Assembly: GCF_963676665.1 (NCBI RefSeq) | Contig: NZ_OY781373.1 | Span: forward strand, 62,001 to 126,000 | Length of the DNA stretch: 64,000 bases | DNA from: an uncultured Tolumonas sp. | Lineage (GTDB): Bacteria > Pseudomonadota > Gammaproteobacteria > Enterobacterales > Aeromonadaceae | Direction of reading: 5' to 3' | Part shown: piece by piece, positions 10,917 through 27,691 of the stretch | Position numbering within the stretch: position 1 is the stretch's first letter | Layout: every line of letters begins with the position of its first letter | Position numbers and translations under genes: made by a program | The notes under the pieces: generated by a model | The model's database searches: none | What the model saw: only the letters and a program-made list of their open reading frames with translations | Told to the model about the DNA's origin: nothing

Positions 10917-11222
10917 TTAGCGGAATAGGTCATCCCCGCTCTTAAATCCCAGCCCGGGATGAAAATCAAAGCGCACTGCACCTACCGCAATTTTTCCTTG
11001 CACGGCGCGTTTTATGCGGGCTAACCCTTCAGCACCGAAGCCAGCACATAATTCGATCGCTATTATGCCCTCATCCAATAAAGATTTAGCGACAGTTTCT
11101 GCTTCAGCATAGTTTTTAACCGCGATAGTGGTGACTTCCACATCGCCCGTGTTGACTTGTGTCCGATGTTTTTCTGGATCCGCTTGTTCTGATACGAAGA
11201 TAAACGCAGCTTTCAATGTCAT
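10917..11222 (-). CDS. DUF6506 family protein
   Basis: 101 aa from the ATG at 11222 (MTLKAAFIFVSEQADPEKHR), with AGGA 8 bases upstream. It matches, from memory, a small family annotated DUF6506: an N-terminal strand, then TIAVKNYAEAETVAKSLLDEGIIAIELCAGFG. No catalytic residues are recognisable. The neighbouring AraC gene suggests it is that regulator's target or partner. Confidence 0.65.
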   Translation of the reverse strand: MTLKAAFIFVSEQADPEKHRTQVNTGDVEVTTIAVKNYAEAETVAKSLLDEGIIAIELCAGFGAEGLARIKRAVQGKIAVGAVRFDFHPGLGFKSGDDLFR

Positions 11223-11438
11223 GTTAATGTTCCTGTAGCGGGTGGTTATCATTAATCCAACACGATGCTAACGAGTTATCGCGCCGTCTTTATTGTAAGA
11301 AAGCGACATTATTGCTATCGGTTTGATAAAACCGTTGTAGAGAACGTTTATCCTGGTCGTTTTCCCGCCAAATCTGACGGCTGTTTTTCATGGCAGCCGT
11401 TGGTTAGTGTCAGTGCAAAATCTCATCCGGAGTTTTGC

Positions 11439-11667
11439 ATGTCACTTGCCGTTGTCTACAGCCGCGCCAGCCTTGGCGTTGATGCACCGTTAGTCTCTGT
11501 CGAAGTTCATCTCAGTAATGGTTTACCGGCCTTTAATATCGTCGGCTTGCCGGAAGCCTCGGTGAAAGAGTCGCGTGATCGGGTGCGCAGTGCCTTGATC
11601 AACGGCAACTTTGAGTTTCCTGCGAAACGGATCACCGTTAATTTAGCACCGGCTGATTTACCCAAGG
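11439..11667 (+). pseudogene. comM: comM 5' fragment (interrupted by the transposon)
   Basis: The first 76 codons of ComM/YifB (MSLAVVYSRASLGVDAPLVSVE...VNLAPADLPK). Reading on into the transposon adds only Val and a stop (GTG TGA). Joined in frame with 27692-28983 it gives 506 codons, the normal ComM length. ComM is a hexameric MCM-like helicase that drives branch migration during natural transformation. As it stands it is disrupted. Confidence 0.95.
11663..11667 (+). repeat. Target-site duplication, left copy (CAAGG)
   Basis: CAAGG directly precedes the transposon terminus TGTGAG and is repeated at 27687-27691 directly after the other terminus. In the intact gene it occurs once (CCC AAG GAA GGG). 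Five bases is the duplication length of Tn7-like elements. Confidence 0.95.
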
Positions 11668-11731
11668 TGTGAGTTACAAATTTAAATGAAAATAAATATC
11701 AAAAAATGAAAAATAACAAAAATAAATGAAA
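11668..11731 (+). repeat. Left transposon end with 20-bp-phased AAATGAAA repeats
   Basis: After the terminal TGTGAGTTACAAA, AAATGAAA occurs at 11684, 11704 and 11724, exactly 20 bases apart. Counted from the terminus, TGA falls at positions 20-22, 40-42 and 60-62. Tn7 ends carry repeated 22-bp TnsB binding sites; this is the equivalent pattern and probably marks the TnsB sites of this element. Confidence 0.7.
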
Positions 11732-11763
11732 CTTATTAGCTATTAAAGGATTTGTACTCTCTT

Positions 11764-12648
11764 TTAATTTCGAGAGCTATTGTTTCGTTGAATACAAAAT
11801 CCAGGGGCCATCTTCATGGATTCAATGTCGTAAAGTTCATCGATGTTTTTTAAAGCTAAAGGATATTGTTTGGAATCTAATTTATATGTTTTGGAGCAAT
11901 CAACTCTGAGATCATTCAACAAAAATCCAAGGCACGCTTCTGACGCAGCAATAGTTTTTTGTCCTGCACCTGGCAGGCCCAAATCTAAGAACTGGCTATC
12001 AGGATGGTTACTATTGGGGTGAGGAATAAGATGAATATTCCTGATGCGATTCCATGTTGAATCTCTTGATTTGCTAAATTTGGATGATGGTTCACCGCCT
12101 AGTGGTATAGCAGATACAACCCTTGTAAATTTGAATGTTCGATATTCACTTACTGAAAAATCATAGGCTCTAAAATACCAAGAACCACTAGATTCAAAGA
12201 GGCTGTGGGGCGATAAAATCCTTGTTTTTTTCCCTGAACTAGCAGATGAGTATTCGATTAATACTTGTTGTGAGTTGACCATTGTTCTAGTGATTGAACC
12301 AATGAGTCTCGCATCTAATTGTTGCTCAATTGTTACTTTTCCAGTCCCAAATGTCTCGACAAGAAAAGTTTCTTCAACCTTACCGTAAGCTAAATATCGT
12401 AACCCATCCTCAGCAAGATGGTTTTCTGCCGATATGAATTTTTCAGCTGCAATATAACCATTTCTTGAGCCTAGGAAGACAACTGCTTCAGGATTTATCT
12501 CTATATAAGAGGCTATTGTTCGACTAGCGGTAGCTTCTCCTATACCGAACCTACATACAATTTCTGAGCGGGTTAACTTTCCTTTGAAATGCAAAAGGAA
12601 ATCAATAAATTTGAATCTAGCTGTTTGCAGAGGGTCGACTAGCTGCAT
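11764..12648 (-). CDS. WYL-domain transcriptional repressor (BrxR/CapW-like) of the Wadjet-like operon
   Basis: 294 aa. Residues about 10-65 are a winged helix (LTRSEIVCRFGIGEATASRTIASYI). Residues about 115-190 are a WYL domain (VLIEYSSASSGKKTRILSPHSLF, then GSWYFRAYDFSVSEYRTFKFTRV). The C-terminal 90 residues fit a WCX dimerisation domain. This wHTH-WYL-WCX order is that of BrxR and CapW, dimeric repressors of anti-phage operons. It is divergent from the SMC/Toprim operon, and two copies of TATCAAATGATA lie between them, so it probably represses both directions until a ligand or DNA-damage signal relieves it (inference). Confidence 0.8.
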   Translation of the reverse strand: MQLVDPLQTARFKFIDFLLHFKGKLTRSEIVCRFGIGEATASRTIASYIEINPEAVVFLGSRNGYIAAEKFISAENHLAEDGLRYLAYGKVEETFLVETFGTGKVTIEQQLDARLIGSITRTMVNSQQVLIEYSSASSGKKTRILSPHSLFESSGSWYFRAYDFSVSEYRTFKFTRVVSAIPLGGEPSSKFSKSRDSTWNRIRNIHLIPHPNSNHPDSQFLDLGLPGAGQKTIAASEACLGFLLNDLRVDCSKTYKLDSKQYPLALKNIDELYDIESMKMAPGFCIQRNNSSRN

Positions 12649-12670
12649 ATGTCACCTATCGCTATTTTGA

Positions 12671-12682
12671 TATCAAATGATA
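12671..12682. promoter_or_regulatory. Operator 1, TATCAAATGATA, at the WYL regulator promoter
   Basis: An inverted repeat TATCA-AA-TGATA, identical to the copy at 12745-12756. It lies 23-34 bases upstream of the regulator start codon, where its own transcript would begin, consistent with autorepression. Confidence 0.65.
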
Positions 12683-12713
12683 CGATATTTTTATTTTATT
12701 TGGTGTTTTTATA

Positions 12714-12741
12714 TTGAAATTTATATAAAAAAGATTATTAA
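12714..12741 (+). promoter_or_regulatory. Candidate promoter of the Wadjet-like operon
   Basis: TTGAAA (12714-12719) and TATTAA (12736-12741) are separated by 16 bases in AT-rich DNA. The second operator starts four bases after the -10, so a bound repressor would cover the transcription start. Confidence 0.4.
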
Positions 12742-12744
12742 TGG

Positions 12745-12756
12745 TATCAAATGATA
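12745..12756. promoter_or_regulatory. Operator 2, TATCAAATGATA, at the operon start
   Basis: The second exact copy of the 12-bp inverted repeat, 74 bases from the first. It includes the most upstream ATG of the jetD-like frame (12751), which argues that translation starts further down at 12775. Confidence 0.65.
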
Positions 12757-12774
12757 TCAAAATGTGTGAGTGAT

Positions 12775-13584
12775 ATGGCATCTGAACTAATGAAATCAAT
12801 GGCTGCGATCCAGGGAGGAAGGGGGGTCGATTGGCCAAGTATGAGAAAAAGACTCCTCAAGCTTGGGGTTGAGGAATCACTTTTGAGGAAAGCGGTAGAA
12901 GTTACTCGTTACAGTGAATCTGTATACCATGTAACAATAATCAATAAGAAAAATTTTGATCAGTTAGTTAAATATGCAGAACCCATAGATAAAAGCTCCA
13001 GGTCAAAAGCTAGTCTCAGTGGCAAAACGCATAGAACCAATGTTAATGGCGCTTTATTAGTAGCATCTACATCAACTTCTGAAACTCCATACAATTATAT
13101 TTTTAGAGATAAAGAAAATTATCCTATTCCATTCAAAAAACATGCAATGATTATTGAAAATTTAGAATGTTTTTTGGAACTAAAAGCAGTTTACCAATTT
13201 ACTATTGATAAATGTGGTATCACTTATCCAGAAAATGATATTGAATTCATTTGGGCAGCAGGTAATAGTATCTCAAATAAATTAATAATACCTTATCTAA
13301 AATCATTTGAAGGAGATGTATTATGCGTTCTCGATGTTGATTTTGGAGGCCTTAAAATATATTCAAATTTAATTTCTGGTGGCTTGGATATTAATAAGAC
13401 GAAATATATTGTTCCTACAGATATTGAAGAAAGACTAAATGGTTCTCGAATAAAGTTATCAACAAAAGAGCTCGAGTGCTTAAGCCGAGTATATGGAGTT
13501 TCAACGCAAACTGATAATATTATTCGAACCTTAAGATACTATGGAAAAAAATTGGAACAGGAGAGTTATCGTGCAATTCAATAA
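12775..13584 (+). CDS. JetD-like Toprim nuclease subunit of a Wadjet-like system (short form)
   Basis: 269 aa from the ATG at 12775. The C-terminal half has the DUF2220/Toprim signature: acidic motif MIIENLECFLEL (Glu about residue 128), a middle WAAGNSISNKLIIPYL, then LDVDFGGLKIYS (two Asp near residues 187 and 189), and the terminal GKKLEQES that echoes the LEQE motif of JetD. JetD is the nuclease that cleaves DNA trapped by the SMC motor. It is shorter than a typical JetD (roughly 380-400 aa), mainly at the N-terminus. It lies first in the operon and overlaps the SMC gene by 14 bases. An upstream ATG at 12751 is inside the operator. Confidence 0.75.
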   Translation: MASELMKSMAAIQGGRGVDWPSMRKRLLKLGVEESLLRKAVEVTRYSESVYHVTIINKKNFDQLVKYAEPIDKSSRSKASLSGKTHRTNVNGALLVASTSTSETPYNYIFRDKENYPIPFKKHAMIIENLECFLELKAVYQFTIDKCGITYPENDIEFIWAAGNSISNKLIIPYLKSFEGDVLCVLDVDFGGLKIYSNLISGGLDINKTKYIVPTDIEERLNGSRIKLSTKELECLSRVYGVSTQTDNIIRTLRYYGKKLEQESYRAIQ

Positions 13585-16570
13585 TGGCTTTAAATTGGAT
13601 TTACCAAGTGAATATAAAATTATAGAGCTGATTTTTATTAATAGCGGTTCTAATTATTATGTAAAATTGCCTGTTGATAATAATGCCGCATTGTATTCAG
13701 GTAATAACCAAGGAAAGACATCTACACTTGCTGCATTAAAGTTATTTTTACTACCAGAGGTAAATTTTAAAAAAAGTGCAGATAAGTTTGGTTTTGCTTC
13801 TGGTGGTGAATATTTCTCCGATATTGATTCATTTCAATATTATTTTCCTAGCTCAGAATCGTACATAATATGTAACTCTGAAAATCCTGCCTGGAGAGAT
13901 GGTTTTTGTTGGGTTCTATTTAGAACGACGGATTATGGTTATCATCGGATTGCAGTTCCACATCCTTATAGCTATATAGAACATCTATTTTGGGATGGTT
14001 CATCAAAATTAAATAATGGCATTGGCCAGTTAAGAATAGATATTAATCTTACAGAAATAAAGAAAAAACTAACTTCAAAAGAATATGGAGGAGAGTTATT
14101 TACTGACAGAACATTAATAGGAGAGGCTATTTATTCTAGAACATCAACTACAGATGATCATACTCGATTCAGTCTATTACCAATGTCGAAGAGATTTACT
14201 GCAGCAAGTGTAGATACTGTCCGAGCCCTATTAGGAATGGCATTTAGTCTTGGTAATGCATCGACTTCAACTTTACCTATGGCTATTGGATCGATTATTG
14301 ATGGAATGGGATTGAGTGTTGTTAAAGATGATGGTGTTTTTATTGACCTTGATTCGGCACTGGATGAATGGCAACGCTTAAAAAAAGAAGATGAGCGTCT
14401 ATCTTTAATTGAAGAGTTGCAACCAAAATGGAAGGAATTAAAGTTAGATAATTCTATCTATAATTCATTAAAACTAGATATAAATAAAAAATATCAAACT
14501 ATATTTTCAGCTGTATATAATAAACGAGAAGAACTAAATGCCAAATTAAAATCTTTGATAGAAGAGCTAACTATTGCCGAGAAAAATTATAATTTATCAA
14601 ATAAATCATCTATAAATGCTGAAGATAAACTCAAAACCGTGTTAGCACAACACGACGCGCAAAAAAAGATGATACATAATTTAGAAATACAACTAAAGCA
14701 AATTGAAGAGATTAGACTATATTATGGTCCTTTATGCCAAAGTGAAAGTAGAAATGACGAGGAGTTGTTAAACGTAATATTGGAAGAAATTAAATTTATT
14801 GATCAAGAAATTAAAGCACTAGAAAATGAAGGTGTTGCTCAAAATAAATTAATTAAAGTGTTATCAGATATCAAAGAAAGTCAAGACGAGCTGTTAACAC
14901 TTAAAAGAAACATTATAGAATTAGATAATGGGCAGTCATTTTTTGATAATTTAGAACAGCATTCTAGGTCTGTTCTTAGTAGCTTAAATTCCGGCTTTGC
15001 TCAAATAAACTATAAACCTACAGAGCAAGAAAAAAATATTATTTGTTCATTTACTGGCATGTTCAGTTGTGTTGATGAATGCTTGTGTTTTAATGGAGTA
15101 AAAATACCTAGCGCCAAATTTAAAGAACATGATCTAGAAATGGTTAAAAATAAAGTAAAAGATAAGATTGAAAATATAAAGAGGCAGTTAATTTTATACA
15201 ATAAAGAAAAATCGTCATTATTGGAATCATTAAAAATGAAACCCGAGGCGAGGGTAAGTAAACTTCATGAGTCTAAATGTGAATTGGATAAAGTTACCAA
15301 AAAGAAAAATATATTCGAAGGCAGATCTATATTGGCAGATAATCTTCGCGAAGCAGAATGTGAGTTAATTGAAATTAAAAAACAAGAAGAGATATTTAAA
15401 GAAAATCATGAGAAATCGATAGAAACACTAAAGGAAAGTAATAAGAAATATAAAGATACACTGTTTAGACAAAATGAAATTCAGAAACCATTAGAGCGAT
15501 TGGATTCTCAGTATAAAGAAATAGATGAATTATTATATAAGCATCAGGGAGTGATTGTTAAATACAATGAAAATGATGCCATTCAATCATCTATAGAATA
15601 CGAAGAGAGCATTATTCGGGATGAAATGCTGTTATTATCTAATAAATTAAAAGAAGTAGATTCTATTCGTGAACGTGTTCTTGAAAGATTTAGATATCTC
15701 CTAGGGAAGAATATTATACATTCCTCACCTGAAGATATTTATTCAATAAATACAACAAGGAAAATATTTCAGGATTATTTTGATTCTTTCGAAACATTAT
15801 TCAGCACTCTAGAACGATCAAGAAATAGATATATAGAACAATTGAATGCACACAATAACACAGCGGAAACATCAGCCAAAATAATAGAAAATATTAAAGG
15901 GGTCATTGAGAGTTTTATATATGAAATAAATCAACAACTGAATGGATACCATATTTCAAACTTAGATGGATTTGAAATAACTGCAGATCTTCATCCTCTA
16001 TATGTTGAGGTTGTTGAATCTATGAATAAGGTATCGTCTCATCTTAATAGCCTTTTGCCAGAGGATTTCTATAAGCAAGTTCAAAATTTTCAATCTAAGT
16101 TTTATATTAGGAAAACTGGTAAAATTGATTTATCTAAAATCATTGAAAAAGTTAGTTATCAATTTAACCGTAATGGAAAAAAAGAAGCTGTTCCGCAGTC
16201 TAATGGTACCAATTGCATGGTCAATGCGGTATTGCTAGCATTATTACTTAAACGTTTAGTTCCCGAAGATTTAGAGCTCTCGATACCAGTAATATTTGAT
16301 GAAGTTGGTAGCCTTGATGAAAGAAACCTCTACGAAATTCTCAGCGTTGTCGAAGAGCATGGTTTAACACTATTTGCTGCCAACCCTGAAGCCACGGGTG
16401 TAATTGCAAGTGTATTAGATACATATCATGACCTATCATCATTTCAAGTTTCAGATGTGGAAGTACATGGAAAAGCTGAATGGATTTATTTTTCTGGAAT
16501 GGAAGAAACATTATTTAATGTCAAAAACCATAATGATTTATCTAGTCAAATATCTATCGAGGGCAGATAG
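13571..16570 (+). CDS. JetC-like SMC/MukB-type ATPase of a Wadjet-like system
   Basis: 999 aa from the GTG at 13571, chosen because AGGAGAG stands 6 bases upstream; an ATG 30 bases earlier has no such site. Walker A is SGNNQGKTST near residue 44-53. Two long coiled-coil arms (about residues 250-440 and 540-690, rich in K, E, I and N) are separated by a hinge-like globular part. The ABC signature lies in QSNGTNCMVNAVLL near residue 878, and Walker B is IPVIFDEVGSLD near 905-915. This is the SMC motor that extrudes DNA loops in Wadjet. Strongly AT-rich codon use, unlike the host genes. Confidence 0.82.
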   Translation: MQFNNGFKLDLPSEYKIIELIFINSGSNYYVKLPVDNNAALYSGNNQGKTSTLAALKLFLLPEVNFKKSADKFGFASGGEYFSDIDSFQYYFPSSESYIICNSENPAWRDGFCWVLFRTTDYGYHRIAVPHPYSYIEHLFWDGSSKLNNGIGQLRIDINLTEIKKKLTSKEYGGELFTDRTLIGEAIYSRTSTTDDHTRFSLLPMSKRFTAASVDTVRALLGMAFSLGNASTSTLPMAIGSIIDGMGLSVVKDDGVFIDLDSALDEWQRLKKEDERLSLIEELQPKWKELKLDNSIYNSLKLDINKKYQTIFSAVYNKREELNAKLKSLIEELTIAEKNYNLSNKSSINAEDKLKTVLAQHDAQKKMIHNLEIQLKQIEEIRLYYGPLCQSESRNDEELLNVILEEIKFIDQEIKALENEGVAQNKLIKVLSDIKESQDELLTLKRNIIELDNGQSFFDNLEQHSRSVLSSLNSGFAQINYKPTEQEKNIICSFTGMFSCVDECLCFNGVKIPSAKFKEHDLEMVKNKVKDKIENIKRQLILYNKEKSSLLESLKMKPEARVSKLHESKCELDKVTKKKNIFEGRSILADNLREAECELIEIKKQEEIFKENHEKSIETLKESNKKYKDTLFRQNEIQKPLERLDSQYKEIDELLYKHQGVIVKYNENDAIQSSIEYEESIIRDEMLLLSNKLKEVDSIRERVLERFRYLLGKNIIHSSPEDIYSINTTRKIFQDYFDSFETLFSTLERSRNRYIEQLNAHNNTAETSAKIIENIKGVIESFIYEINQQLNGYHISNLDGFEITADLHPLYVEVVESMNKVSSHLNSLLPEDFYKQVQNFQSKFYIRKTGKIDLSKIIEKVSYQFNRNGKKEAVPQSNGTNCMVNAVLLALLLKRLVPEDLELSIPVIFDEVGSLDERNLYEILSVVEEHGLTLFAANPEATGVIASVLDTYHDLSSFQVSDVEVHGKAEWIYFSGMEETLFNVKNHNDLSSQISIEGR

Positions 16571-17968
16571 ATGCAAACAAATGGACAAAACACGCTTGTC
16601 ATTATGTTTCAACATGTGGACATTTTTTTTACAATGCTTGATTATTATTCTGAACAGAATAAAAGTATAGTTGGATTTAAAATATCAACTTATGAAAATG
16701 TATTAGGTTATTATTGTAATAAGCATATTCAGGATAAGAATGATAGACGAAGAATTTTAGCCGCACTATCCATTAAAAATATGGAAAAATGCGGTCTTCT
16801 TAGTCTTGTTAATGATAATAAGGGTGTGTTTTCTTTACAAAAATGCCTGCTTCAGACTATTCAGAATTTAGATTCTAAAAGAATAAGAGAGTTGGGCCAA
16901 CCAGATCTAGATATTATTTATGCTCAAATAAAATCATTATATGATTATTTTTCATCACACAATCTTATTCTTAGTCATTTTGATTCTGATGTCCTCGAAA
17001 ATCTATCGGCATTAACAGATACATTACAAGAAGTGTTTTCAAAGATTGATCATAACGTAAGAGCTTTAGAAGGTAGCTCTAAACGATTATCTGAAATAGT
17101 GGATAGTCATGATTTTAATAAGAAAATGCCGACAAAACAGGTAAATGATGCTCTCGATGAGATCATAAGAATATATAGGAGAAATATTAAGCCGACACTA
17201 ACTTTTTTAAATGAAAAAGCAATGACGAGAGATTCGTCTGCGATGTTTCTTATCAGAAAAATCCGTGAAATATTAGAAAGGACAACCTTTCATAAAGAGC
17301 TAAATAATATAATAGCTATAGAGATGAAGCTTCTTTCTTTTTCGGAAGTCATTAATGATATTAGGAGGAAATTAAGTCGGTATATAGATATGAGTGTTTC
17401 GCAAAGAAAAATTTATAATGAAATCGAAGTTCAATTTAATGATCTTAATCACATAGTTATAAGTCTGTTAGATTCAAAGCTTACAGGTAAGCAACTATCA
17501 TATGAACATGATTTTTTTAAGAAAAATAGATGTTTTACAGGTCTTAACAACTGGTTAAGGACAAGCCTGACGGCTCCAATTATTGAACTTCCTGAAAATT
17601 TCAATATAGATTTTTCCTTGGAATATATAAGAACTAAATTAGATAGAGTCGATATTCTTGAGTCAAAAAAGAGATTGCCAAGTAAAAAATCTCACAGTGT
17701 AGCAGAAAGGCGAGCTCGACAACTAAGGGTTGGAAACATAAAAATGGCTATGAAATGTTTTGATACGTCAGTGTTTATACCGGATCTCTATTTTGCAATT
17801 CATCAGCATTTTCTCGTTAATTTAAAAGACTATGAGCTTAAGGATATTTATGATGCGATCCCTTTTATTAACAAACAAATTTATAAAAAGAATACGCTTA
17901 TTCGCCGAGAAATAACACATCTGGGTAAGGTTCTAAGTTATACAGTAAAAGAACTTGGAGTTGTTTAA
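16571..17968 (+). CDS. JetA-like kleisin (MukF-type) subunit
   Basis: 465 aa, starting immediately after the SMC stop codon with GAGGGC 7 bases upstream. The N-terminal 110 residues look like winged-helix DNA/protein-binding segments; residues about 140-320 are helical with coiled-coil tendency (VFSKIDHNVRALEGSSKRLSEIVDSHDF); the C-terminus is again winged-helix-like. There is no enzymatic motif. Its size and position between the SMC gene and a small gene match the JetA/MksF kleisin, which bridges the SMC heads. The call rests mainly on operon context. Confidence 0.7.
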   Translation: MQTNGQNTLVIMFQHVDIFFTMLDYYSEQNKSIVGFKISTYENVLGYYCNKHIQDKNDRRRILAALSIKNMEKCGLLSLVNDNKGVFSLQKCLLQTIQNLDSKRIRELGQPDLDIIYAQIKSLYDYFSSHNLILSHFDSDVLENLSALTDTLQEVFSKIDHNVRALEGSSKRLSEIVDSHDFNKKMPTKQVNDALDEIIRIYRRNIKPTLTFLNEKAMTRDSSAMFLIRKIREILERTTFHKELNNIIAIEMKLLSFSEVINDIRRKLSRYIDMSVSQRKIYNEIEVQFNDLNHIVISLLDSKLTGKQLSYEHDFFKKNRCFTGLNNWLRTSLTAPIIELPENFNIDFSLEYIRTKLDRVDILESKKRLPSKKSHSVAERRARQLRVGNIKMAMKCFDTSVFIPDLYFAIHQHFLVNLKDYELKDIYDAIPFINKQIYKKNTLIRREITHLGKVLSYTVKELGVV

Positions 17969-17969
17969 A

Positions 17970-18530
17970 ATGAATGAATTTGGTTTAAATGTAATAGCAT
18001 CGCAGGAAATATATAAAGATCTTATAGGCGGTCGAGTTATTAACCGCTATGAACTTGTTGATGATAAACTTGTTTTGTCTCCAAAGTTTTCAGCTTTGGT
18101 TAATGATGTTGATTTGTTTAGAGGTTTATATCTGCTATTGGGTTTTGATTTGATTAATGTAGGGCGGGACTCGTATTATATTTCAAGAGTCGATAGGACA
18201 GATCTTAATGATATAGGTGCGAATATTCAAGTAATACTTTTAATGTTGAGCAGAGGATTAACATTGAAAGGTATTTCACCAAATATTATGTTTGATATGT
18301 CTGCTGGTGTAAGTGCTAGGGATATAGATTCTATAGGTGATGATGATGATATATCAAGAATAGTGAGGGCCTGCGGACTACAACTACCATTTACTAAACC
18401 AGTAAATACTATTATGGTTGAAAGAGGCTTAATGTACCGACTACAAAATGATCGGTATGTTCTATCATGCGCAGGAAAATTTCTCTTTGAAAAGCTTTTT
18501 AATGAGGATAAATCTGATGATGAGATCTGA
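17970..18530 (+). CDS. JetB-like (MukE/MksE-type) subunit
   Basis: 186 aa from the ATG at 17970, one base after the kleisin stop, with GGAG 9 bases upstream. It begins FGLNVIASQEIYKDLIGGRVINRYELVDD and ends MVERGLMYRLQNDRYVLSCAGKFLFEKLF, the two winged-helix halves expected of a KITE protein such as MukE/JetB. It is last of four tightly packed genes. The assignment is by size, fold impression and context. Confidence 0.7.
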   Translation: MNEFGLNVIASQEIYKDLIGGRVINRYELVDDKLVLSPKFSALVNDVDLFRGLYLLLGFDLINVGRDSYYISRVDRTDLNDIGANIQVILLMLSRGLTLKGISPNIMFDMSAGVSARDIDSIGDDDDISRIVRACGLQLPFTKPVNTIMVERGLMYRLQNDRYVLSCAGKFLFEKLFNEDKSDDEI

Positions 18531-18563
18531 TATTGTTTGTGGCATAAAACTACTCCAAGTCGC

Positions 18564-19208
18564 ATGAGAATTCTTTTTTGCGGCGACCCACACGGACAAT
18601 TCGAGCACATCTTTGAGCAGGTACGACGAACACGGCCAGCTGCAGTCGTGTTACTCGGCGACTTTGATTTGTCTCAACCATTTGAAACTGTGTTTGCACC
18701 TATTCTGGATTTAACCGAACTGTGGTTCATTCATGGTAACCATGACACGGATAATGAGCATTGTTACGACCACTTATTTTACTCCCAGTTATCGGATAGA
18801 AACTTACACGGTAAGGTAATGAATATTGGTGGATTGCGAATTGCTGGGTTGGGAGGTGTGTTCCGAGGTCAGATCTGGTATCCACCGGAAACTCCTCGAT
18901 ATCAAACAAAAGCAGATTTTATTGCCCGTTGTGGCAAAGGGAACCGATGGCGTGGTGGTTTACCGCTTAAACATCGAAGCAGTATCTTCCCTGAAGATTT
19001 AGATCTATTTCAAGGACAGAAGGCTGACATCCTAGTTTGTCATGAAGCACCAGCGGCTCACCCGCATGGTTTTGCTGCTATTGATGACCTGGCTGATTCA
19101 TTAGGGGTAAAACAGATCATTCATGGTCATCATCATGAGCCGTTCGTATATTCAGACCCTCGGTACGTGAACGTAGGTTTTCGTGGTTTTTATGAGATGT
19201 CAGATTGA
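18564..19208 (+). CDS. Calcineurin-like metallophosphoesterase
   Basis: 214 aa from the ATG at 18564 (MRILFCGDPHGQFEHI); a TTG nine codons earlier is also possible. Metal-binding motifs are in order: GDPHG, VVLLGDFDLS, WFIHGNHDTDN, VCHEAPA and IIHGHHHEP, all five blocks of the calcineurin-type phosphoesterase fold. It follows the JetB-like gene by 33 bases but has a clearly higher G+C content, so it is probably a separate acquisition. The next gene, a HipA-like kinase, begins one base after its stop, so these two form a pair. Confidence 0.85.
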   Translation: MRILFCGDPHGQFEHIFEQVRRTRPAAVVLLGDFDLSQPFETVFAPILDLTELWFIHGNHDTDNEHCYDHLFYSQLSDRNLHGKVMNIGGLRIAGLGGVFRGQIWYPPETPRYQTKADFIARCGKGNRWRGGLPLKHRSSIFPEDLDLFQGQKADILVCHEAPAAHPHGFAAIDDLADSLGVKQIIHGHHHEPFVYSDPRYVNVGFRGFYEMSD

Positions 19209-19209
19209 T

Positions 19210-19980
19210 ATGACCACACCCATTTATCGAATTACTGCCGATGCGAAAACAGAGTTCATTGATAATATTGATGAAGTGTCTTGGTGGTTGTTCGATCGGT
19301 TACCGCAAGGGTTTGCCGGGCGCGTTTACGCCAAACAGATATTAAAACAACATCCTGAATTCTCATCTGATTTGCGTGATTGGTCAGATCCTGTTGTACT
19401 TCAGTTGCTTTCTGAATATCCCGTTGATGCGATCGGTAATTTGTTGGTTGGGGAGAATGATTTAGAGCGCTACCAGATGACAGAAAATACCCAGTGTTCT
19501 CTCGCTGATTTGCCTCGATTGGCTGAACAGGCAAAGGCATTTTGTCAGACTCTGATTTCTGGTGAACAACCTAAGTTCTGTTGTGACATTGAGCAACATG
19601 GCCCCTGCATCGTGAAATTTGCAATGACAGAACGCCAGGCGGATTTGCTCATTGCTGAACATATTGCCTTATCTGTTTTGAATGATGCGGGTATTCCGGC
19701 TGCACAAACTACGCTGCTCCGTGCTGGCCACTATCAGTTTTTAGTTATTCGTCGTTTTGATTGTATCGGTTCCGCTCGACATGGCGTTGTATCGCTAAAA
19801 GCACTCGATTTGGAATTCGTCGGAAGTCGGGATCGACGCTGGCCAGTGATAGCTAGTCAGTTGATAGAGCAGGGCGTTATTGCGGCCAATGCATTACCAA
19901 CCATTCAGCTTCTGTTTTGCTATGGTCGTTTGATTGCTAATAGTGATATGCACAGTGGTAATTTGTCTTTCTTCTTTGAT
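19210..19980 (+). pseudogene. HipA/YjjJ-like serine kinase toxin, 3' end removed by the IS
   Basis: 257 codons remain. The sequence resembles the YjjJ-type HipA kinases: phosphate/ATP region CIVKFAMTERQADLLIAEHIALSVLNDAGIPA, then FLVIRRFDCIG, and the catalytic loop IANSDMHSGNLSFFF, in which Asp, His and Asn match the HipA GDNDRHxxN loop. The frame runs into the IS21-family terminus, gaining one Cys and a stop (TGT TGA). The C-terminal helical part, including the Mg-binding region after the catalytic loop, is missing, so activity is unlikely. Confidence 0.8.
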
Positions 19981-20041
19981 TGTTGATTTGCGCTTAAAAC
20001 TGACCCACTTTTTGCGTTGAATTTTGACCCACCCTAATTCA

Positions 20042-20830
20042 CTATTTTACGGGTTTGGGTTGTGGATAAACCGGTGTCTTTTTCTCCTTTTTCCCCTTGG
20101 TTGAACTTTCTTTAAAACGATAGCTGTCATTCCCAGTTTCAACAATATGGCAATGGTGTGTCACCCGATCTAACAGGGCTGTTGTCATCTTCGCATCACC
20201 AAATACATTCGACCATTCCGCAAAATTCAGATTGGTCGTGATGATCATGCTGGTACATTCGTATAGTTTACTCATCAAGTGAAAGAGTAAGGCGCCACCC
20301 GTTTGACTAAAGGGTAAGTAACCCATTTCATCCAGTACAACTAAGTCGGTGTGCATCAATCTGGCCGCGATTTGTCCTGCTTTGCCTTGCTGTTTTTCTT
20401 TCTCCAGCGCATTCACCAATTCAATGGTCGAAAAGAATCGAACGCGTCGGTGAAACTGTTCAATGGCCTGTATCCCGATGGCGGTAGCAAGATGGGTTTT
20501 ACCGGTTCCCGGGCCGCCCACTAAAACCACATTTTGTGCATTATCCATAAAGTCACCTTGGCATAGTTGCCGGATAAGCGCCTCATTAGCCATGCTCTCA
20601 GTAAAGTTAAAACCATTCACATCTCGATAGGCAGGAAACTTAGCGGCTTTTAATTGATAGGCCACCGAGCGAACTTCTCGCTCTGCCAGTTCTGCTTTCA
20701 ATAAATGATCTAATACCGTGATGCTGGCCTGAAATGCCGGTGAGTCTTGTTCCGCAAGATCTGCCAGCGCGTGAGCCATGCCATATAACTTCAGTGATTT
20801 AAGTACGGGGAGCATGGCATTAGTGAGCAT
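20042..20830 (-). CDS. istB: IstB transposition helper ATPase
   Basis: 262 aa, a DnaA/DnaC-like AAA+ ATPase. Walker A is [18 protein letters not shown] near residue 105; Walker B is [18 protein letters not shown] near residue 165. IstB assembles on DNA and activates the IstA transposase. It overlaps the istA 3' end by 11 bases, as usual for IS21. Confidence 0.95.
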
Positions 20831-22337
20831 GATGATCTCCTTGCAGTCTCAGATTGTCATAGCGGGTCACGTTAGCCAACGGCTCGATCTTCAGTGTCAG
20901 CTCGGGTGGGACATCTATCGGTGCCAGCGGTGTTTTATCCAGTAATCGACTCAAAATATTGAGGACAATTTGCTTCGAGGGTGCGCCCGTCTCCAACGCT
21001 AATTCAACTGCCGTCAATACATCCTGTTCATCGTGCAGCAATACCAGCGCTAAAATGTCCACCATCTCCCGATCACCTCCTATGCGCTTGAGTAGAATGG
21101 ATTGCAATGTCCGGAAGGCTTGAGGCAATTCGACAAACGGCGCACCGTTACGCAATGCCCCCGGCTTTCGCTGTAATACAGAGAGATAATGTCGCCAGTC
21201 GTAGATGATGAGTGGGTGTTCATGTTTGCGATTAAACAACCGTTGATGGACCGCGATAATGCCGCCTTCTGCAATCACCTCGAGACGGTCATGATAAATG
21301 TGCAAACTCACCGGGCGGTTGGCAAATGACGAGGGCACGCTGTAACGCGTGCGTTCAAAGGTCAGCAAACTCGTGGGAGAGATCCGCTTTGTTTGCTCGA
21401 CGAATCCATCAAAAGGCTGGCCAACTGGCATCAGGAAGGGACGTTCATCATCCAGTGCGGCCTGGATTGTTCTGGCTTCAGTAGGATGGGTTGATTCATG
21501 CCAGAGCGCGACACAACGTGCAGCCAACCAATCGTTCAATGCCGTCAGTGACGGCATCTCAGGCACTTTTTGCCACAATCGTCGCCGGGCATCCTGTACA
21601 TTCTTCTCGATCTGACCCTTTTCCCAACCGGCGGCTGGATTACAAAACTCAGCATCAAACAAATAGTGACTAACCATGGCCGCAAACCGGGCATTCACAT
21701 CGCGCTGCTTACCCTGTTTTACCTTATCTACGGCGGTCTTCATATTGTCGTAGATGCCCCGTTGTGGAATACCACCCCATGCCGTAAAGGCATGGTAATG
21801 CGCATCAAACAGCATCTCATGGGTTTGCAGCGGATAAGCGCGAACGAAGAAAGCACGGCTGTAACTCAATTTACAATGAGCAACTTGCAGCTTGACGCGT
21901 TCACCCGCAATTACCGCCCAATCCTCGCTCCAATCAAATTGAAATGCTTCGCCGGGCGAAAACTGCAAAGGGATATAGGTGTGCTTGCTAGCACCGTGAG
22001 TGGATTCTAATTGCCGACGACGCCACTCGCGGGCAAATACCGCTACGCGATCATAGGAGCCATCAAAACCGAGGGTACATAAATCAGCGTGCATCTGTTT
22101 GACGGAGCGGCGTTGTTTACGAGAGGTTCTGGCTGCATCGGTTAACCACTGCGTCAGTTTATCGGTAAAAGCATCGAGTTTACTGGGTGTTTGCCGTTGA
22201 GGATAAAGGGGTTCAGCAATCTCAGTTCTGAGATAACGGCGAACTGTATTGCGGGAAAATCCGGTACGGCGGGCGATCTCCCGGATCGAGAGTTTATCGC
22301 GGAAATACCAACGTCTGATCTTGCTCAAAATGGCCAC
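20820..22337 (-). CDS. istA: IstA transposase (IS21 family)
   Basis: 505 aa from the GTG at 22337, preceded by GGAGT 7 bases upstream. The N-terminal HTH is [21 protein letters not shown]. The DDE residues are in [24 protein letters not shown] and [16 protein letters not shown] frame extending 24 codons upstream would start near the IS end and lacks a ribosome binding site. It appears intact, so the IS may still be active. Confidence 0.93.
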
Positions 22338-22450
22338 GTTAATCACTCCTAACTCCCGCTCATAAAATAAGCAGGATAGTCTGTTTACGTGGATCAAATT
22401 TCGACGCAAATATGTGGGTTTAGTGGGTCAGTTTTAAACGCAAATCAACA

Positions 22451-22549
22451 GGCTAGGATCTCTTTTGCTTTGGGATAACCAATCCAGACCGGTCTTTTCA
22501 GATTTTCAATGCGATCTTCAATCGATAATTCAGCGGTCGAACTGGCCAT
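22451..22549 (-). pseudogene. tnsC: tnsC (tniB-like) 5' remnant, 33 codons
   Basis: The ATG follows the tnsB stop directly. The encoded start, ending ENLKRPVWIGYPKAKEILA, carries the conserved N-terminal WIGYPKAKEIL block of TniB/TnsC transposition ATPases. The frame then enters the IS terminus and ends Cys-stop. Everything from Walker A onward is missing. TnsC couples target selection to TnsAB, so the transposon cannot move without help. Confidence 0.85.
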
Positions 22550-24418
22550 TTATATTTCCTCTACGTCATCAAAAGGCGTGATGTCGTCAAGCTCAGGTAC
22601 AGATATTTCCTGCATTGGCGGCGGGGAATGAATTTTCTTTTCTTTAACGAGTGCAGCTTTACGGGTCTGACTTTTAGCTTGTCGGATACGTTCTTTTTTA
22701 GCTAACTGGGTTTTGGCTACAGAGGAATTTTGGATCCGCTGCATTTCAGAAAGAGCAGTGAAAATCTCATCCTGGTTACAATTGCGTTTACCGCGTTCAG
22801 CAAGATAGGTCTGGATCGCCCGAAGCTCCCACAAGCTCACCACGGGAAAGCGCATATTCTGGTAAGGAATACGAAAATACTGTTCCAACTCTGGGTCAAA
22901 GAACAGCACGGAGCTGATATCGCGAGGGTCACGACGAACAATGAACTTTCGCTTTTTCTTTGGTTCTTTCGGATCTTTAGCACCAATCCATCGACTGAGC
23001 ACATCAGCTTGGTAATAAATACCATCCCATGCAATTCCATAAGGTTGGATTGTCCGTTCTTCAAATGGCAGAAAGTCGATCAGGAATTCCGGATAGTTTC
23101 TTGGTTGTGGCGGAATACCTTTACCAGGATGTAAATCATCGCCTTCGATCCCGAGCTGATACTGGAATATAGGAGAACATTTCAGATCTCTGTGGATACG
23201 ATTGTGATAAACCCCAAGCACAAGATTGTTAAACCATTTCTCAAATTCACTCAGGGTCATTGAGGCATGTTTGGCTGGGTTATATTCACCAAGCTCCTGA
23301 TTATTGGAACGTGTTGTTCCTGGTAATGCATGGATCTCAGACATCAGAGTGCCCATAAGCCGCTCTATCGAACCACCGAAATGCGGAGTTCTGACTGGGC
23401 GATACTGCAAATCAATACCATGTCGGGCACAGGCCCGTTGGAGCGCTTCACTTCTGAATTCTTTCGCGTTATCGAGATGAATGGTTTTAGGTAACCCCTG
23501 ACATGGCCATGCAAATGGAATGTCATGACTTTCCAGATAACTGTCCTTTGGCATCACTGCATTTGCGATACAAAGCGCCGTACCAATTGTTCCTGGTGGG
23601 TCAAAGGAGATGTAGTAACCTGCAATCATTCTACTGAAGATATCAATCGCAACAGTGATGTTAGGTCGTTGTAGTGATAACCGGTATTGGTCATCCACTA
23701 ACATGATATCGACCTGTGTATGGTCGATTTGTATTACGGAGTACGGATAATCAGCGCCGGGGAAATGTCCCCGAATGGGATTAAATTTTCGGGCTGCCTG
23801 TTTTCCATCACGCCTTGCTGCAAGGACCGATGGTGGAATTTTCTTAATACGATTCAGGAATGTATTGAAATGTGGTGGCTCCAGACTTTGTTCAAAACAT
23901 CGGACACACAAGTTTCGATAGGTCTGCGTTGGTGTTAAAAGTTGGATGGTTAGGTAGTCATTTTCTATTGCATCTTCAATCAGTTTTTCCAGCTCACCAT
24001 CTATGCGACCAGCGCCTTTATCTGAACGGCCCCTTCGAACCAAATCAGCCACATTGCCTGATTTTTCATACTGTCGTAACCAACGATAAATGGTGATGGT
24101 ACTGACCTTAAATTTTTTAGCTGTTTTTTCGAAAGACTCGGACTTCGATAACCCAGAACGCTGTTTTTCAATTAACCAACTGATGACTTGATATCTATGC
24201 AGTGCTATTTGCCATTGCTCATCAGATAGCAGCGCCAGTTCCGTCTTTTTCTGTTGGATGTTGTCCGGTTTAAATAGATGTATTTCTTCGGGAGGAATTT
24301 TAAGTAACTCGCCGGTCTGAACAGAAAACAGTTCAACACGACCATCAAGTCGTGTTTGTTTGTAGCAGAAAAGTTCTGAGTCCTTTCTCAGGATAGATCC
24401 ACAGCGTAGATTATCCAT
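22550..24418 (-). CDS. tnsB: TnsB-like DDE transposase (TniA)
   Basis: 622 aa from the ATG at 24418, preceded by GTGAG; a GTG three codons earlier is the alternative. Residues about 80-130 hold helix-turn-helix segments (SESFEKTAKKFKVSTITIYRWLRQYEKSG). The retroviral-type integrase core has its catalytic residues in VIQIDHTQVDI, TIHLDNAKEFRSEA and GGSIERLMGTL (Asp near 230, Asp near 314, Glu near 350). A Mu-type C-terminal domain and a basic tail follow. TnsB binds the transposon ends and cuts and joins the 3' strands. It sits between tnsA and the tnsC remnant and appears intact. Confidence 0.92.
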   Translation of the reverse strand: MDNLRCGSILRKDSELFCYKQTRLDGRVELFSVQTGELLKIPPEEIHLFKPDNIQQKKTELALLSDEQWQIALHRYQVISWLIEKQRSGLSKSESFEKTAKKFKVSTITIYRWLRQYEKSGNVADLVRRGRSDKGAGRIDGELEKLIEDAIENDYLTIQLLTPTQTYRNLCVRCFEQSLEPPHFNTFLNRIKKIPPSVLAARRDGKQAARKFNPIRGHFPGADYPYSVIQIDHTQVDIMLVDDQYRLSLQRPNITVAIDIFSRMIAGYYISFDPPGTIGTALCIANAVMPKDSYLESHDIPFAWPCQGLPKTIHLDNAKEFRSEALQRACARHGIDLQYRPVRTPHFGGSIERLMGTLMSEIHALPGTTRSNNQELGEYNPAKHASMTLSEFEKWFNNLVLGVYHNRIHRDLKCSPIFQYQLGIEGDDLHPGKGIPPQPRNYPEFLIDFLPFEERTIQPYGIAWDGIYYQADVLSRWIGAKDPKEPKKKRKFIVRRDPRDISSVLFFDPELEQYFRIPYQNMRFPVVSLWELRAIQTYLAERGKRNCNQDEIFTALSEMQRIQNSSVAKTQLAKKERIRQAKSQTRKAALVKEKKIHSPPPMQEISVPELDDITPFDDVEEI

Positions 24419-24440
24419 GCAACTCACTTTGCCAAGTTGA

Positions 24441-25184
24441 CTATGGCGTTATTATGCGCGAACGAAACCGTCTACGAATGGGAGATTGTTCAAAGTTATA
24501 ATCAAAAGGTGGTTCACCATTCCAAATGATAGTGTTCATGGTAAGTTGCGTTGTTAGGTCCACATTTAACCGGCCATCGCGAACTAACATCCAGATGTAA
24601 GGTAAAAGCTGTTGTTGTGTTTTTTTATCTTGGGAAAGAGATTGCAATAACTCATTAATTGATAAGTGTTGATGGATTAATATGTTGTTAACCTGAGATT
24701 CAATCTCAGTGGCTGTACCTAGATCTGATGTTGGGAATCTACTTCGGTCGTACTGCAAGAGAAAGTTTATATTTTTGAGATAAGGTGTTTCAATATATTT
24801 TTCTGTTACCAATTTAAATAAATAGCCTCGTTCCTTGCACCATTTTGTCGCCATTTTAAATCTAAGAGAAAATCTCTTCCATTCTTCCTGGAGAATTTTT
24901 TGTGGTTTTATTTCAAAAACGGTTTTCTGAATATATTCCAAGTTATCAATAGTAATGAGTCTCTCAACCAAAATATCTGGTGTATATCTATTGTTTCTGG
25001 TGTTGTGCGATAAAATCGTAAATGGCTGTGTTTGAATTGATTGTATGCTGTGATCGAAGATCAAACAATTAATGAATTTTTTCTCTAGCTCAGATTCGAA
25101 GCTTAGTGATTTATACGATTTGGTACTGGCTTGTATTCCAGATGAAAAAATATATCTAAGATTAATTTTTCTTCCTTCTGGCAT
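24441..25184 (-). CDS. tnsA: TnsA-like endonuclease
   Basis: 247 aa from the ATG at 25184, with TTAGG upstream and just past the stop of the preceding gene; an ATG at 25223 would overlap that gene by 29 bases. The restriction-endonuclease-like core has Glu in SLSFESELEKKFI, Asp in NRYTPDILVE and Glu-x-Lys in TVFEIKPQKI. TnsA cuts the 5' strands, making the element cut-and-paste rather than replicative. Adjacent to tnsB. Confidence 0.87.
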   Translation of the reverse strand: MPEGRKINLRYIFSSGIQASTKSYKSLSFESELEKKFINCLIFDHSIQSIQTQPFTILSHNTRNNRYTPDILVERLITIDNLEYIQKTVFEIKPQKILQEEWKRFSLRFKMATKWCKERGYLFKLVTEKYIETPYLKNINFLLQYDRSRFPTSDLGTATEIESQVNNILIHQHLSINELLQSLSQDKKTQQQLLPYIWMLVRDGRLNVDLTTQLTMNTIIWNGEPPFDYNFEQSPIRRRFRSRIITP

Positions 25185-25194
25185 TAGCCTAATC

Positions 25195-26409
25195 TCATCG
25201 ATTTCTGAATAATAAGAAAACAATCATCGCAACGACTACTGGAGTCCAGGATAATATTCGATAGCAAATCAACCATTTTCTTGCATTTGAAAAGCATTTA
25301 TTTAATCTGTCTTTCATTTTTTCAATAGATAAAGATAAATCTTTTGGATATTGCTCTTTCTTTCCGTCAATAGATTGTAAGACTAATATTTTAGATTCTT
25401 CTATGGAATCAAGCCTGTTTTTTTGATTATCAATTGAACCTGATATTATTACTGATGTAATAAGCAATCCAAGAGTTAATATTGAGCACTCAAAAAAACT
25501 GAAGTTGTAATTAAAAAAAGGAATTATTGCAGCAAGAGAAACTGGAACTGTTAATATTTTATTTGTAATATCACTTATTATGTTTGATAGTTGGTTTGCT
25601 ATATCTATTTCAGCTTGTGCTACTTCTCTTTTTGCTTTATGGAAAGTAAAGCCACTTAAATATGTGCTGAGGTTTTTTTGATACATCTCAACGAATTTAT
25701 CCCAAGATCTTACTAGCTTTGAAAAAGCATCTGTTGGTGCTTCGTCAGAGTTTATAAACTCCAATAAGGTCGAAGAAAAAACATGTAATTTTTCATGATA
25801 ATGAGGTTCTAGTTTCGCTTCATCTGAAATCAAGTATGACATAAATGAGAAATCTTGAGGTATACACTCGATCATTTCTTGGGATGTATGAATATCTAAT
25901 AACAAAGGTTTACTGATCTCAGATATTGATGCAACAAACACTACAGTGGTAATTCCTGTAGTTGAGTTTTTTGTATCGTGATAGTGTGCTAGCTTTAATA
26001 GCACATGGATGAATTCGCAAAACCTTTTCAGTTCATCAATAATTGGATGCGATTCTTCTGGATAGCAAACATCTTCATCTATTAGATAAAATGATGTCGG
26101 GAAAACCCCTTTTTTTAAACTGGCACAAGAAAGTAATAGGTTGATAGCACTTTTATACCATTTACCAACAGCTTTACTACCTAGCCTAATTTTGATATCA
26201 ATTGGAGCTCCATCTGTTTGTAAGCGCTCCATTTGATCAACTAGATCCTCGTCTCCTTGCGCTGCAAAATCAACACGATGAGGATCTAAAGATGATTTTA
26301 GTCGCTGAATATTTTCTGCGGATGCAGCTATCCTTCCAGAAAATTCATTATCAGGAATTTCCGGCCGATTTACCTCTCTGTATAATTGAACTACATCAAG
26401 ATGAGCCAT
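25195..26409 (-). CDS. Unrecognised protein with C-terminal membrane anchor
   Basis: 404 aa. The N-terminal 280 residues are soluble and mixed helix/strand; I recognise no domain. Two hydrophobic segments at about 288-330 (VPVSLAAIIPFF..., then LTLGLLITSVIISG) and one at the C-terminus (LSWTPVVVAMIVFLLF) suggest three membrane helices with a helical, charged stretch between them. It overlaps the upstream YejK-like gene by 14 bases, so they are translationally coupled, and ends 10 bases before tnsA. It lies between the transposon end and the transposition genes. No function is proposed beyond partnership with the YejK-like protein. Confidence 0.75.
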   Translation of the reverse strand: MAHLDVVQLYREVNRPEIPDNEFSGRIAASAENIQRLKSSLDPHRVDFAAQGDEDLVDQMERLQTDGAPIDIKIRLGSKAVGKWYKSAINLLLSCASLKKGVFPTSFYLIDEDVCYPEESHPIIDELKRFCEFIHVLLKLAHYHDTKNSTTGITTVVFVASISEISKPLLLDIHTSQEMIECIPQDFSFMSYLISDEAKLEPHYHEKLHVFSSTLLEFINSDEAPTDAFSKLVRSWDKFVEMYQKNLSTYLSGFTFHKAKREVAQAEIDIANQLSNIISDITNKILTVPVSLAAIIPFFNYNFSFFECSILTLGLLITSVIISGSIDNQKNRLDSIEESKILVLQSIDGKKEQYPKDLSLSIEKMKDRLNKCFSNARKWLICYRILSWTPVVVAMIVFLLFRNR

Positions 26410-27526
26410 CTTCTTTTATCAACCCTAGTTGTTTTTCAATTTCTTTAATTAAACCTTCTGGCATCTGATTTATAATCAGCTTTCCATTACTATAGCATAA
26501 TTTATCATCTTGTTCTGTACCTAAATCATTTCTATCGAAGTCAATCACAAAATTTTTATCTTTATAGCTAATTCTAGTTAACTTTTTAATTGCATTAAAG
26601 TTGGGGTTGAATTCAACAGGTATTCCAACTTCATCGCTATTAAGTCTTGTTATGAATTCATCAGAAAGCTCTTCTAATAAATCATGGTCATCTGCAGGAA
26701 AAAATCTTCTGGCTATATTTTCTATCTCGGATAATTTTGCAGTGGATTTTGGTTCTGAAGAAGTTTTATCTGTTAAATATGAAAGGATCTGTGCTTTTAA
26801 TTCATCAGAATATGGTGCCAAATTTGGTTTTGATCTGAAAAAATTAACACTTTCAGATACAACTTTCATTGTCAGTTTTTGTGATGGCGCACCAGGCTTA
26901 CAACCTAAAGCACTAATAAAATATCCTGCAGTATCCTTTTGAGTTAATGGACTGACAAAACTAAGATATGTAATATCATTTTTTTCATTTTCATCTGCCA
27001 ATTGATAGCTATCAAACTTATCGAAATTTATCTTTGCTGCTTGGTGTAATCGACTTAAATCCAAATAAACTAAATCTTCTACATTAAGAGTATTTTTGTT
27101 GTTAACAATTCGGTAGCCATCTTTTTGTTTTATCATCGCAATTAAAAAGAATCTAACAGAGTCTACTATATAATCTGAAAAAACAATGTATCCTCCGGTT
27201 GCTAATGGCTGTGCTGAGGCTTTTTCATGTAGTTCTTTCATTGATTCATATGTTATTTTTAAAAAATCACTATCTTTTTGTTCTTCAATAGAAAAATAAT
27301 CTTTAAACCCTTTTGGAAATTGTCCTTTGTAGTCTTTAGTTTCAAAAACGCCATATTGAGCACTACTATTTTTCCTTCCATAAGCGTTGAGAATACCATT
27401 CATGAGATTTATGACTGTTGTGTTATCTGTAGGTAGCAAATCGTCTTTCAAATCTAATGGCAAAGCGGGTTCTTGTTTTTCTTTAATTAATTGATGAATA
27501 ACGAATTTATTAATAATTACTGTCAT
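26396..27526 (-). CDS. YejK/NdpA-like nucleoid-associated family protein
   Basis: 376 aa. The start (NKFVIHQLIKEKQEPALPLDLKDDLLPTDNTTVINLMNGILNAYGRK) and the middle (GGYIVFSDYIVDSVRFFLIAMI..., DLVYLDLSRLHQAAKINFDKF, YLSFVSPLTQKDTAGYFISALGC) follow the E. coli YejK/NdpA pattern (PF04245) closely. The C-terminal KNFVIDFDRNDLG...GKLIINQMPEGLIKEIEKQL also aligns. YejK is a nucleoid-associated protein, but its role is unclear. This copy is about 40 residues longer, AT-rich, lies inside a transposon and is coupled to a membrane protein, so it is unlikely to be the housekeeping yejK. Confidence 0.75.
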   Translation of the reverse strand: MTVIINKFVIHQLIKEKQEPALPLDLKDDLLPTDNTTVINLMNGILNAYGRKNSSAQYGVFETKDYKGQFPKGFKDYFSIEEQKDSDFLKITYESMKELHEKASAQPLATGGYIVFSDYIVDSVRFFLIAMIKQKDGYRIVNNKNTLNVEDLVYLDLSRLHQAAKINFDKFDSYQLADENEKNDITYLSFVSPLTQKDTAGYFISALGCKPGAPSQKLTMKVVSESVNFFRSKPNLAPYSDELKAQILSYLTDKTSSEPKSTAKLSEIENIARRFFPADDHDLLEELSDEFITRLNSDEVGIPVEFNPNFNAIKKLTRISYKDKNFVIDFDRNDLGTEQDDKLCYSNGKLIINQMPEGLIKEIEKQLGLIKEDGSS

Positions 27527-27624
27527 ACGTCATCTCGTTTAGATAGTTAAAAATGGAGTTCAACTCTAAGAGGATTATACCCATTTGAGTGTTCAAAACT
27601 TTGATTCAGTTTAGGTATTAGAAC

Positions 27625-27686
27625 TCATCCTTAGAAACGAAATTTCAATTATTTATGTAATTAATCAATTAATTTTGTAACTCACA
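27625..27686 (-). repeat. Right transposon end with 20-bp-phased TGA motifs
   Basis: The terminus (TGTGAGTTACAAA on the minus strand, 27674-27686) is followed inward by AATTGATT, AATTGAAA and GGATGAGT. Their TGA falls at positions 20-22, 40-42 and 60-62 from the end, the same register as on the left end. These are probable TnsB binding sites. Confidence 0.65.
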
Positions 27687-27691
27687 CAAGG
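27687..27691 (+). repeat. Target-site duplication, right copy (CAAGG)
   Basis: Matches 11663-11667 exactly and directly abuts the right terminus. Together with the left copy it defines the insertion as a single transposition event in comM. Confidence 0.95.

Follow-up and report, generated by a model that had tools for sequence, protein, structure and literature searches.

The locus studied here raises the question of whether a Toprim protein followed by three subunits of an SMC complex belongs to one of the known Wadjet types, to the MksBEF condensins or to a system apart from both. It was found in a window of 64,000 nucleotides (the whole stretch of DNA analysed) from an uncultured Tolumonas sp., where the list of open reading frames places four tightly packed frames in the order D-C-A-B on the + strand at 12751-18530 (Table 1). 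The overlap between D and C is 44 nt and that between A and B is 14 nt, with A starting directly after C, in agreement with an earlier note on this DNA, in which four tightly packed genes with the Toprim gene first and overlapping the SMC gene were described. The G+C content of the operon is 0.29-0.32 (~0.31), against ~0.5 for much of the window. The true start of D is probably its ninth codon, because the nearest homologue, in L054, is 269 aa long and candidate operator 2 covers the upstream ATG; the ~269 aa given earlier for the JetD-like protein matches both this start and the L054 length.

Table 1. Coordinates of the operon, its putative control region and the carrier element in the window.
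Feature	Coordinates	Strand	Details
CAAGG duplication, first copy	11663-11667		5 bp, inside comM
Tn7-like element carrying the operon	11668-27686		16,019 bp, inside comM
WYL-domain regulator, divergent from the operon	11764-12648	-	Pfam WYL 43.9 bits, cutoff 21.8
Candidate operator 1, TATCAAATGATA	12671-12682
Candidate operator 2, TATCAAATGATA	12745-12756		covers upstream ATG of D
D: short JetD/MksG-like Toprim nuclease (predicted)	12751-13584	+	277 aa; probable start ~12775 = 269 aa
C: MksB-like SMC ATPase	13541-16570	+	1009 aa
A: kleisin-like (MksF/MukF-like)	16571-17968	+	465 aa; weak assignment
B: MksE-like KITE protein	17955-18530	+	191 aa from TTG; ATG follows at 17970
HipA-like fragment	19183-19986
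IS21	20042-22409
CAAGG duplication, second copy	27687-27691		5 bp, inside comM

The gap between the divergent WYL gene and the first ATG of D covers 12649-12750. The candidate operators are based on TATCANNTGATA, which occurs 2 times in the window against 0.03 expected, and the WYL regulator may repress expression of the operon through these two sites. A WYL gene was present in 11 of 23 loci and was adjacent and divergent in nine, the model used having been built from two of them; in L011, only 62 bp lie upstream of the operon. No operator common to all the relatives was found. One repeat was common to L003 and L056 and another to L060, L062 and L065, and GAATCATTTGATTC in L061 was the sole site of a relative with a core like that of the window. 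Promoter-like sites showed no excess (35 vs 33.2 in shuffles).

The Toprim protein D

The ENLE, DVD and LEQE runs previously noticed in the Toprim protein were located in D as ENLE (E136, N137), DVDFGG (D195, D197) and LEQE (268-271). Eight positions (E136, N137, F141, G171, D195, E269, Q270 and E271) are invariant in 22 D proteins, and D197 is D in 21 of them and E in one. The EN, DxD and LEQE run also occurs in five JetD proteins of type I size, of which that of locus L075 alone was typed with PADLOC and that of L082 is encoded on the strand opposite to its SMC gene. The part from EN to the C-terminus measures 132-147 residues in the 22 D proteins and 136-150 in the five type I-like JetD, whereas 98-182 residues (median 128) precede EN in the former and 251-265 in the latter. 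Since the EN-to-end lengths are similar and the preceding part is shorter, the shortening of D lies before the Toprim domain; the claim that this JetD falls about a hundred residues short was thus borne out. The elongated CAP domains of type I JetD are believed to keep it shut. Because D is without much of the CAP-domain region, its control should differ from that of type I JetD, and the short D offers a simple subject for studying the role of the JetD N-terminal region.

Comparison of D by hhalign gave 95.4% with JetD, 96.9% with DUF7281 Toprims, reaching LEQE, and 89.4% with one type III JetD. Among the 22 D proteins, 14 matched a JetD3 and 11 a JetD1 model of PADLOC, and the Pfam families JetD_C and DUF7281 were matched by 12 and six, respectively; the window's own D matched no PADLOC or Pfam model at E<=0.01. 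The structure model of D, built from 12 sequences (pLDDT 78.1, pTM 0.60), opens on three helices and a pair of strands, read here as a predicted winged helix. When this model was compared with the PDB by Foldseek, MksG of C. glutamicum (8b7f) was the best match (E 6.7e-5), followed by topoisomerase VI (1.8e-4) and Spo11 (2.0e-3), with low TM-scores (0.29-0.40 on the query) and an rmsd of 18-23. D was thus found to be a relative of JetD and MksG and not a member of a non-JetD family. DNA cutting by MksG of C. glutamicum is reported to require E236, D279 and Y258, and its E349 and E351 are the counterparts of glutamates that have been proposed for JetD (PMC10123090). No tyrosine is invariant across the 22 D proteins; Y59 in the wing is Y in 16 of 22 and otherwise V, W or H. 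Topoisomerase-like catalysis by D was set aside on this ground.

The motor subunits and the known Wadjet types

The SMC protein C carries Walker A (GNNQGKTS), signature (QSNGT) and Walker B (VIFDEV) motifs, as had been noticed before. The ABC signature reads QS-[NGT]-[GS]-[TS] in 21 of 22 C proteins and GSTGT in that of L072; Ser stands for Gly (QSTST, QSNST or QSNSS) in seven (L004, L061, L063, L064, L069, L070 and L071). The corresponding signature is ASNGT or QSTGT in Mks rows and SGGQ or SGGE in type I rows. In profile comparisons, each a single comparison of small alignments with five rows in the MksB and in the JetC1 set, C aligned with MksB over 868 columns (100%, E 1.2e-43) and with JetC1 at 98.6% (E 1.4e-15), B gave 96.3% with MksE vs 68.3% with JetB1, and A gave 60.3% with MksF vs 0.4% with JetA1. 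Furthermore, B matched Pfam MksE at 34.5 bits (cutoff 27), and the same family was matched by the B proteins of all 20 relatives at E<=0.01. The structure model of A was poor (pLDDT 68.9); its five best structural matches were all MukF, MukEF or MukBEF chains (E 0.009-0.043), none of them under E 0.001, and A may be kleisin-like. The kleisin-like and small winged-helix proteins named earlier appear here as a weakly assigned MksF/MukF-like A and an MksE-like KITE protein B. Judged from these profiles, the motor core is nearer MksB, MksE and MksF than type I JetC, JetB and JetA. The Mks-like nature of the core was a point absent from the earlier note. A search of PDB sequences with the four profiles returned no JetD, JetA-C or MukBEF chain, and the C profile matched only coiled coils (including Smc and Rad50) and PtuA at E 0.52.

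The four proteins were also searched with the JetA-JetD models of Wadjet types I-III. None of D, C, A and B matched the 2023 PADLOC models at E<=0.01; the best Jet score in the window was that of C to JetC3 (E 0.013), and D, A and B gave nothing. A control locus on the same contig of the same genome (L075, G000:C6:390000-409000) is a canonical type I Wadjet in the order A-B-C-D and matched JetA1, JetB1, JetC1 and JetD1 at E 3.4e-94 or better. Among the 22 C proteins, no Jet model matched more than two, and two LmuB models and one AriA model matched four each. Type II was compared through its PADLOC models only, no type II representative being aligned because the JetD2 family gave four weak matches in 150 genomes (E 7.8e-5 to 8.5e-4). 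No subtype covered all four proteins, and the suggestion of a divergent subtype outside PADLOC's three types held. The 2023 models miss the window's operon, yet its D gene is carried by 19 of the 41 species sampled in one genus, and defences of this kind may therefore be undercounted.

An SMC-head tree of 34 rows and 425 columns, which contains long branches, was used to examine the relation of C to other SMC proteins. The D-C-A-B C proteins and Mks came together against JetC1, JetC3 and MukB with support of 89/84, which is not strong. The best tree puts Mks among the C proteins, and a constraint holding the latter in one clade was not rejected (p-AU 0.242). Instead of a separate type, the operon might be only a rapidly evolving branch of Wadjet type III or type I in which the genes have been rearranged, and JetD3 is indeed the PADLOC model with the most D matches. 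Forcing the C proteins together with JetC1 gave p-AU 0.029, a constraint tested after the tree had been seen; moreover, C has 1009 aa against 1478 aa for the JetC3 of L078, the Jet models match at most two of 22 C proteins, and the gene order differs. Such an offshoot is considered improbable, a type III origin keeping some plausibility because JetC3 sits on a very long branch.

Distribution, neighbours and carrier element

The order D-C-A-B recurs well beyond the window. All 21 distinct loci with the four genes have it on one strand, and among 20 further loci it was kept in 17, with D alone in three. The arrangement noted earlier thus stands in 38 loci altogether, and given this shared order and the eight D positions fixed across all 22 sequences, the four-gene arrangement exceeds chance. 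Some loci are incomplete or interrupted: B of L066 is truncated at the contig end, L013 ends after C, L056 has a broken C with A and B not found, and L004, on a Photobacterium plasmid, has a DUF5406 gene and another small gene between C and A (10923-11697).

A first C profile matched seven genomes out of 369 in the class (the window's own, three with strong and three with weak matches), and a second, at E<=1e-6, matched 23 out of 398 in the phylum. Seven of these 23 were strong (nine loci, own included), and the 16 weak ones all belonged to one family (f186) and covered the N-terminal head only. A contig scan gave 11 loci from named Gammaproteobacteria, with L011 and L013 appearing again as two of them. 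With the D profile, matches came from 19 of 41 genomes of one genus and 19 of 147 of one family, one match having internal stops; 42 places were listed, of which seven were already in the locus set and 20 of the other 35 were examined. By tblastn against 72,556 plasmid records, C was found in two and D in one. In viral contigs there were pattern matches, none confirmed by tblastn with C, D or the first C alignment; C had no tblastn match in phage records, and E. coli genomes gave no match at the DNA level.

Several observations stand beside these counts. The family is frequent in some groups, which the earlier note did not mention. The solitary D genes belong to three species of one genus (L118 2917-3804, L119 2968-3801 and L121 7995-8828), have intact EN, DxD and EQE, and adjoin a glycerol kinase-like gene (named by eye). 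Four genomes (G677, G856, G1002 and G1012) have two D genes each in separate places.

The operon was said to lie on a mobile element, and this was confirmed by near-perfect inverted repeats (18 of 20 bases) at the ends of a Tn7-like element and by the CAAGG target duplication inside comM. The gene comM is reported as the target of Tn6022-like Tn7 elements, via TnsF (PMC10293859), and a survey of Tn7-like cargo includes Wadjet JetD, with the number 34 (PMC8649781). The element contains a TnsA-like gene with a neighbouring rve/Mu-type transposase, taken for TnsB-like, an IS21 pair and an NA37 gene. As no TnsC or TniQ was seen among the element frames scanned and IS21 lies at their expected place, the element may be decayed.

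The operon's own neighbours (a metallophosphoesterase and the HipA-like fragment) gave no PADLOC match. When 16 neighbour proteins, mostly large, from 10 loci of relatives were scanned with PADLOC, eight matched defence models, in four of the 10 loci, and the other eight were without match. L067 adjoins GajA and GajB (Gabija) and a type III restriction enzyme, L068 a type III restriction enzyme and an HEC-06/Orf5/SspE-like protein, and L055 a type I restriction-like protein. In L063 (133-12449; an uncultured Photobacterium MAG), a WYL gene is followed by a one-strand row of DdmD, DdmE and D-C-A-B, making two candidate plasmid-defence modules side by side.

These neighbourhoods bear on what the operon would act on. 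The same motor and nuclease could serve against phages, the trigger being the state of phage DNA; Gabija and restriction genes adjoin some relatives, and the target is not readable from sequence. The nearest characterised relatives, Wadjet and MksBEFG, are described as acting on plasmids (PMC10586767, PMC10123090), as are DdmD and DdmE (PMC12287153), directly after which the L063 cassette lies. An anti-plasmid role is suggested by analogy with these systems, and an anti-phage one is regarded as unlikely. A different possibility is a chromosome-organising MksBEF condensin whose linked Toprim protein would serve chromosome processing and not defence. MksB is the nearest motor relative, and MksBEF of P. 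aeruginosa is reported to contribute to chromosome organisation (PMC10586767). Against this stand the patchy presence of D in the genus and family above, the locations on a transposon and plasmids, the low G+C inside the window, the defence genes beside relatives, and the match of the window's C to its own genome only among 198 relatives. A condensin is thus very hard to sustain.

Proposed mechanism and comparison with known systems

We favour, at a probability of roughly 70%, the reading that the operon encodes an Mks-type SMC complex armed with a nuclease, which forms a divergent subtype within the Wadjet group and would act on invading DNA, probably plasmids or phages. The traits of the subtype are an Mks-type core, the order D-C-A-B and a D without ~120 N-terminal residues. 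By homology, C, A and B would form a MukBEF-like motor that extrudes DNA loops, and D would be a Toprim endonuclease reduced to winged helix and Toprim, its fold being predicted and its activity and dimerisation presumed. The motor would extrude invading circular DNA until no further movement is possible, as proposed for Wadjet, where cutting is held to follow complete extrusion of the circle (PMC10586767). The stalled complex would then activate D, and a site formed by E136, D195/D197 and E269/E271 would cut the DNA.

No earlier description of a D-C-A-B Wadjet was recognised in the open-access literature, and Data S1 of PMC7617805, which gives that group's operons, may list the family. According to a review, it is unresolved where Wadjet comes from and how it relates to MukBEF and MksBEF, and a defence past of MksBEF is a tempting speculation (PMC10586767); a family uniting an Mks-type motor with a JetD-type nuclease makes this question of origin testable. 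More tentatively, and with somewhat more doubt than confidence, the operon could represent a fourth type of Wadjet that is sister to the MksBEF condensins and carries a nuclease. If so, it would stand, together with the MksFEB-DUF7281 loci, as a living intermediate between condensins and plasmid defence, each able to arise from the other when a small Spo11-like nuclease is gained or lost, and the short D would be a minimal Wadjet cutter controlled without a long N-terminal region.

Set against known systems, the locus shares features with each. By PADLOC's description of Wadjet it has the JetD active-site residues and lacks matches to the Jet models, the order A-B-C-D and the long JetD N-terminus. 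The broad Wadjet/Mks definition, as set out in PMC7617805, takes co-directional consecutive MksB (>890 aa with Walker motifs), MksF (400-1200 aa) and MksE (150-800 aa) with an optional flanking MksG, and it includes the locus, as judged by the lengths of C (1009), A (465) and B (191 aa), the flanking D and our own homology comparisons. The predicted winged helix and Toprim of D resemble topoisomerase VI-A and Spo11, from which the absence of an invariant tyrosine sets it apart. Wadjet type III is alike in that JetD3 models match 14 of 22 D proteins; in L078 it differs by a JetC of 1478 aa, a JetD of 367 aa and the order A-B-C-D. The MksBEF condensins of Pseudomonas type have the MksB-, MksE- and MksF-like core, including the MksE-like KITE protein, but are ordered F-E-B without a nuclease gene, no D homologue being present in L073 or L074, the two loci inspected. 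Two operons that PADLOC gives no Wadjet name (L014 1174-6567 and L015 4770-10259) place a short DUF7281 Toprim after MksF-MksE-MksB; they share the Mks-type core and a Toprim of 277-287 aa with EN, DxD and a terminal QE, and differ in the order A-B-C-D, in a DUF7281 that is not JetD_C-like and in weak matches to the C profile. Wadjet type I (JetABCD, and MksBEFG of C. glutamicum) likewise combines SMC, kleisin and KITE subunits with a Toprim nuclease bearing EN, DxD and LEQE, but in the order A-B-C-D and with a JetD of 391-411 aa, 251-265 residues of which precede EN.
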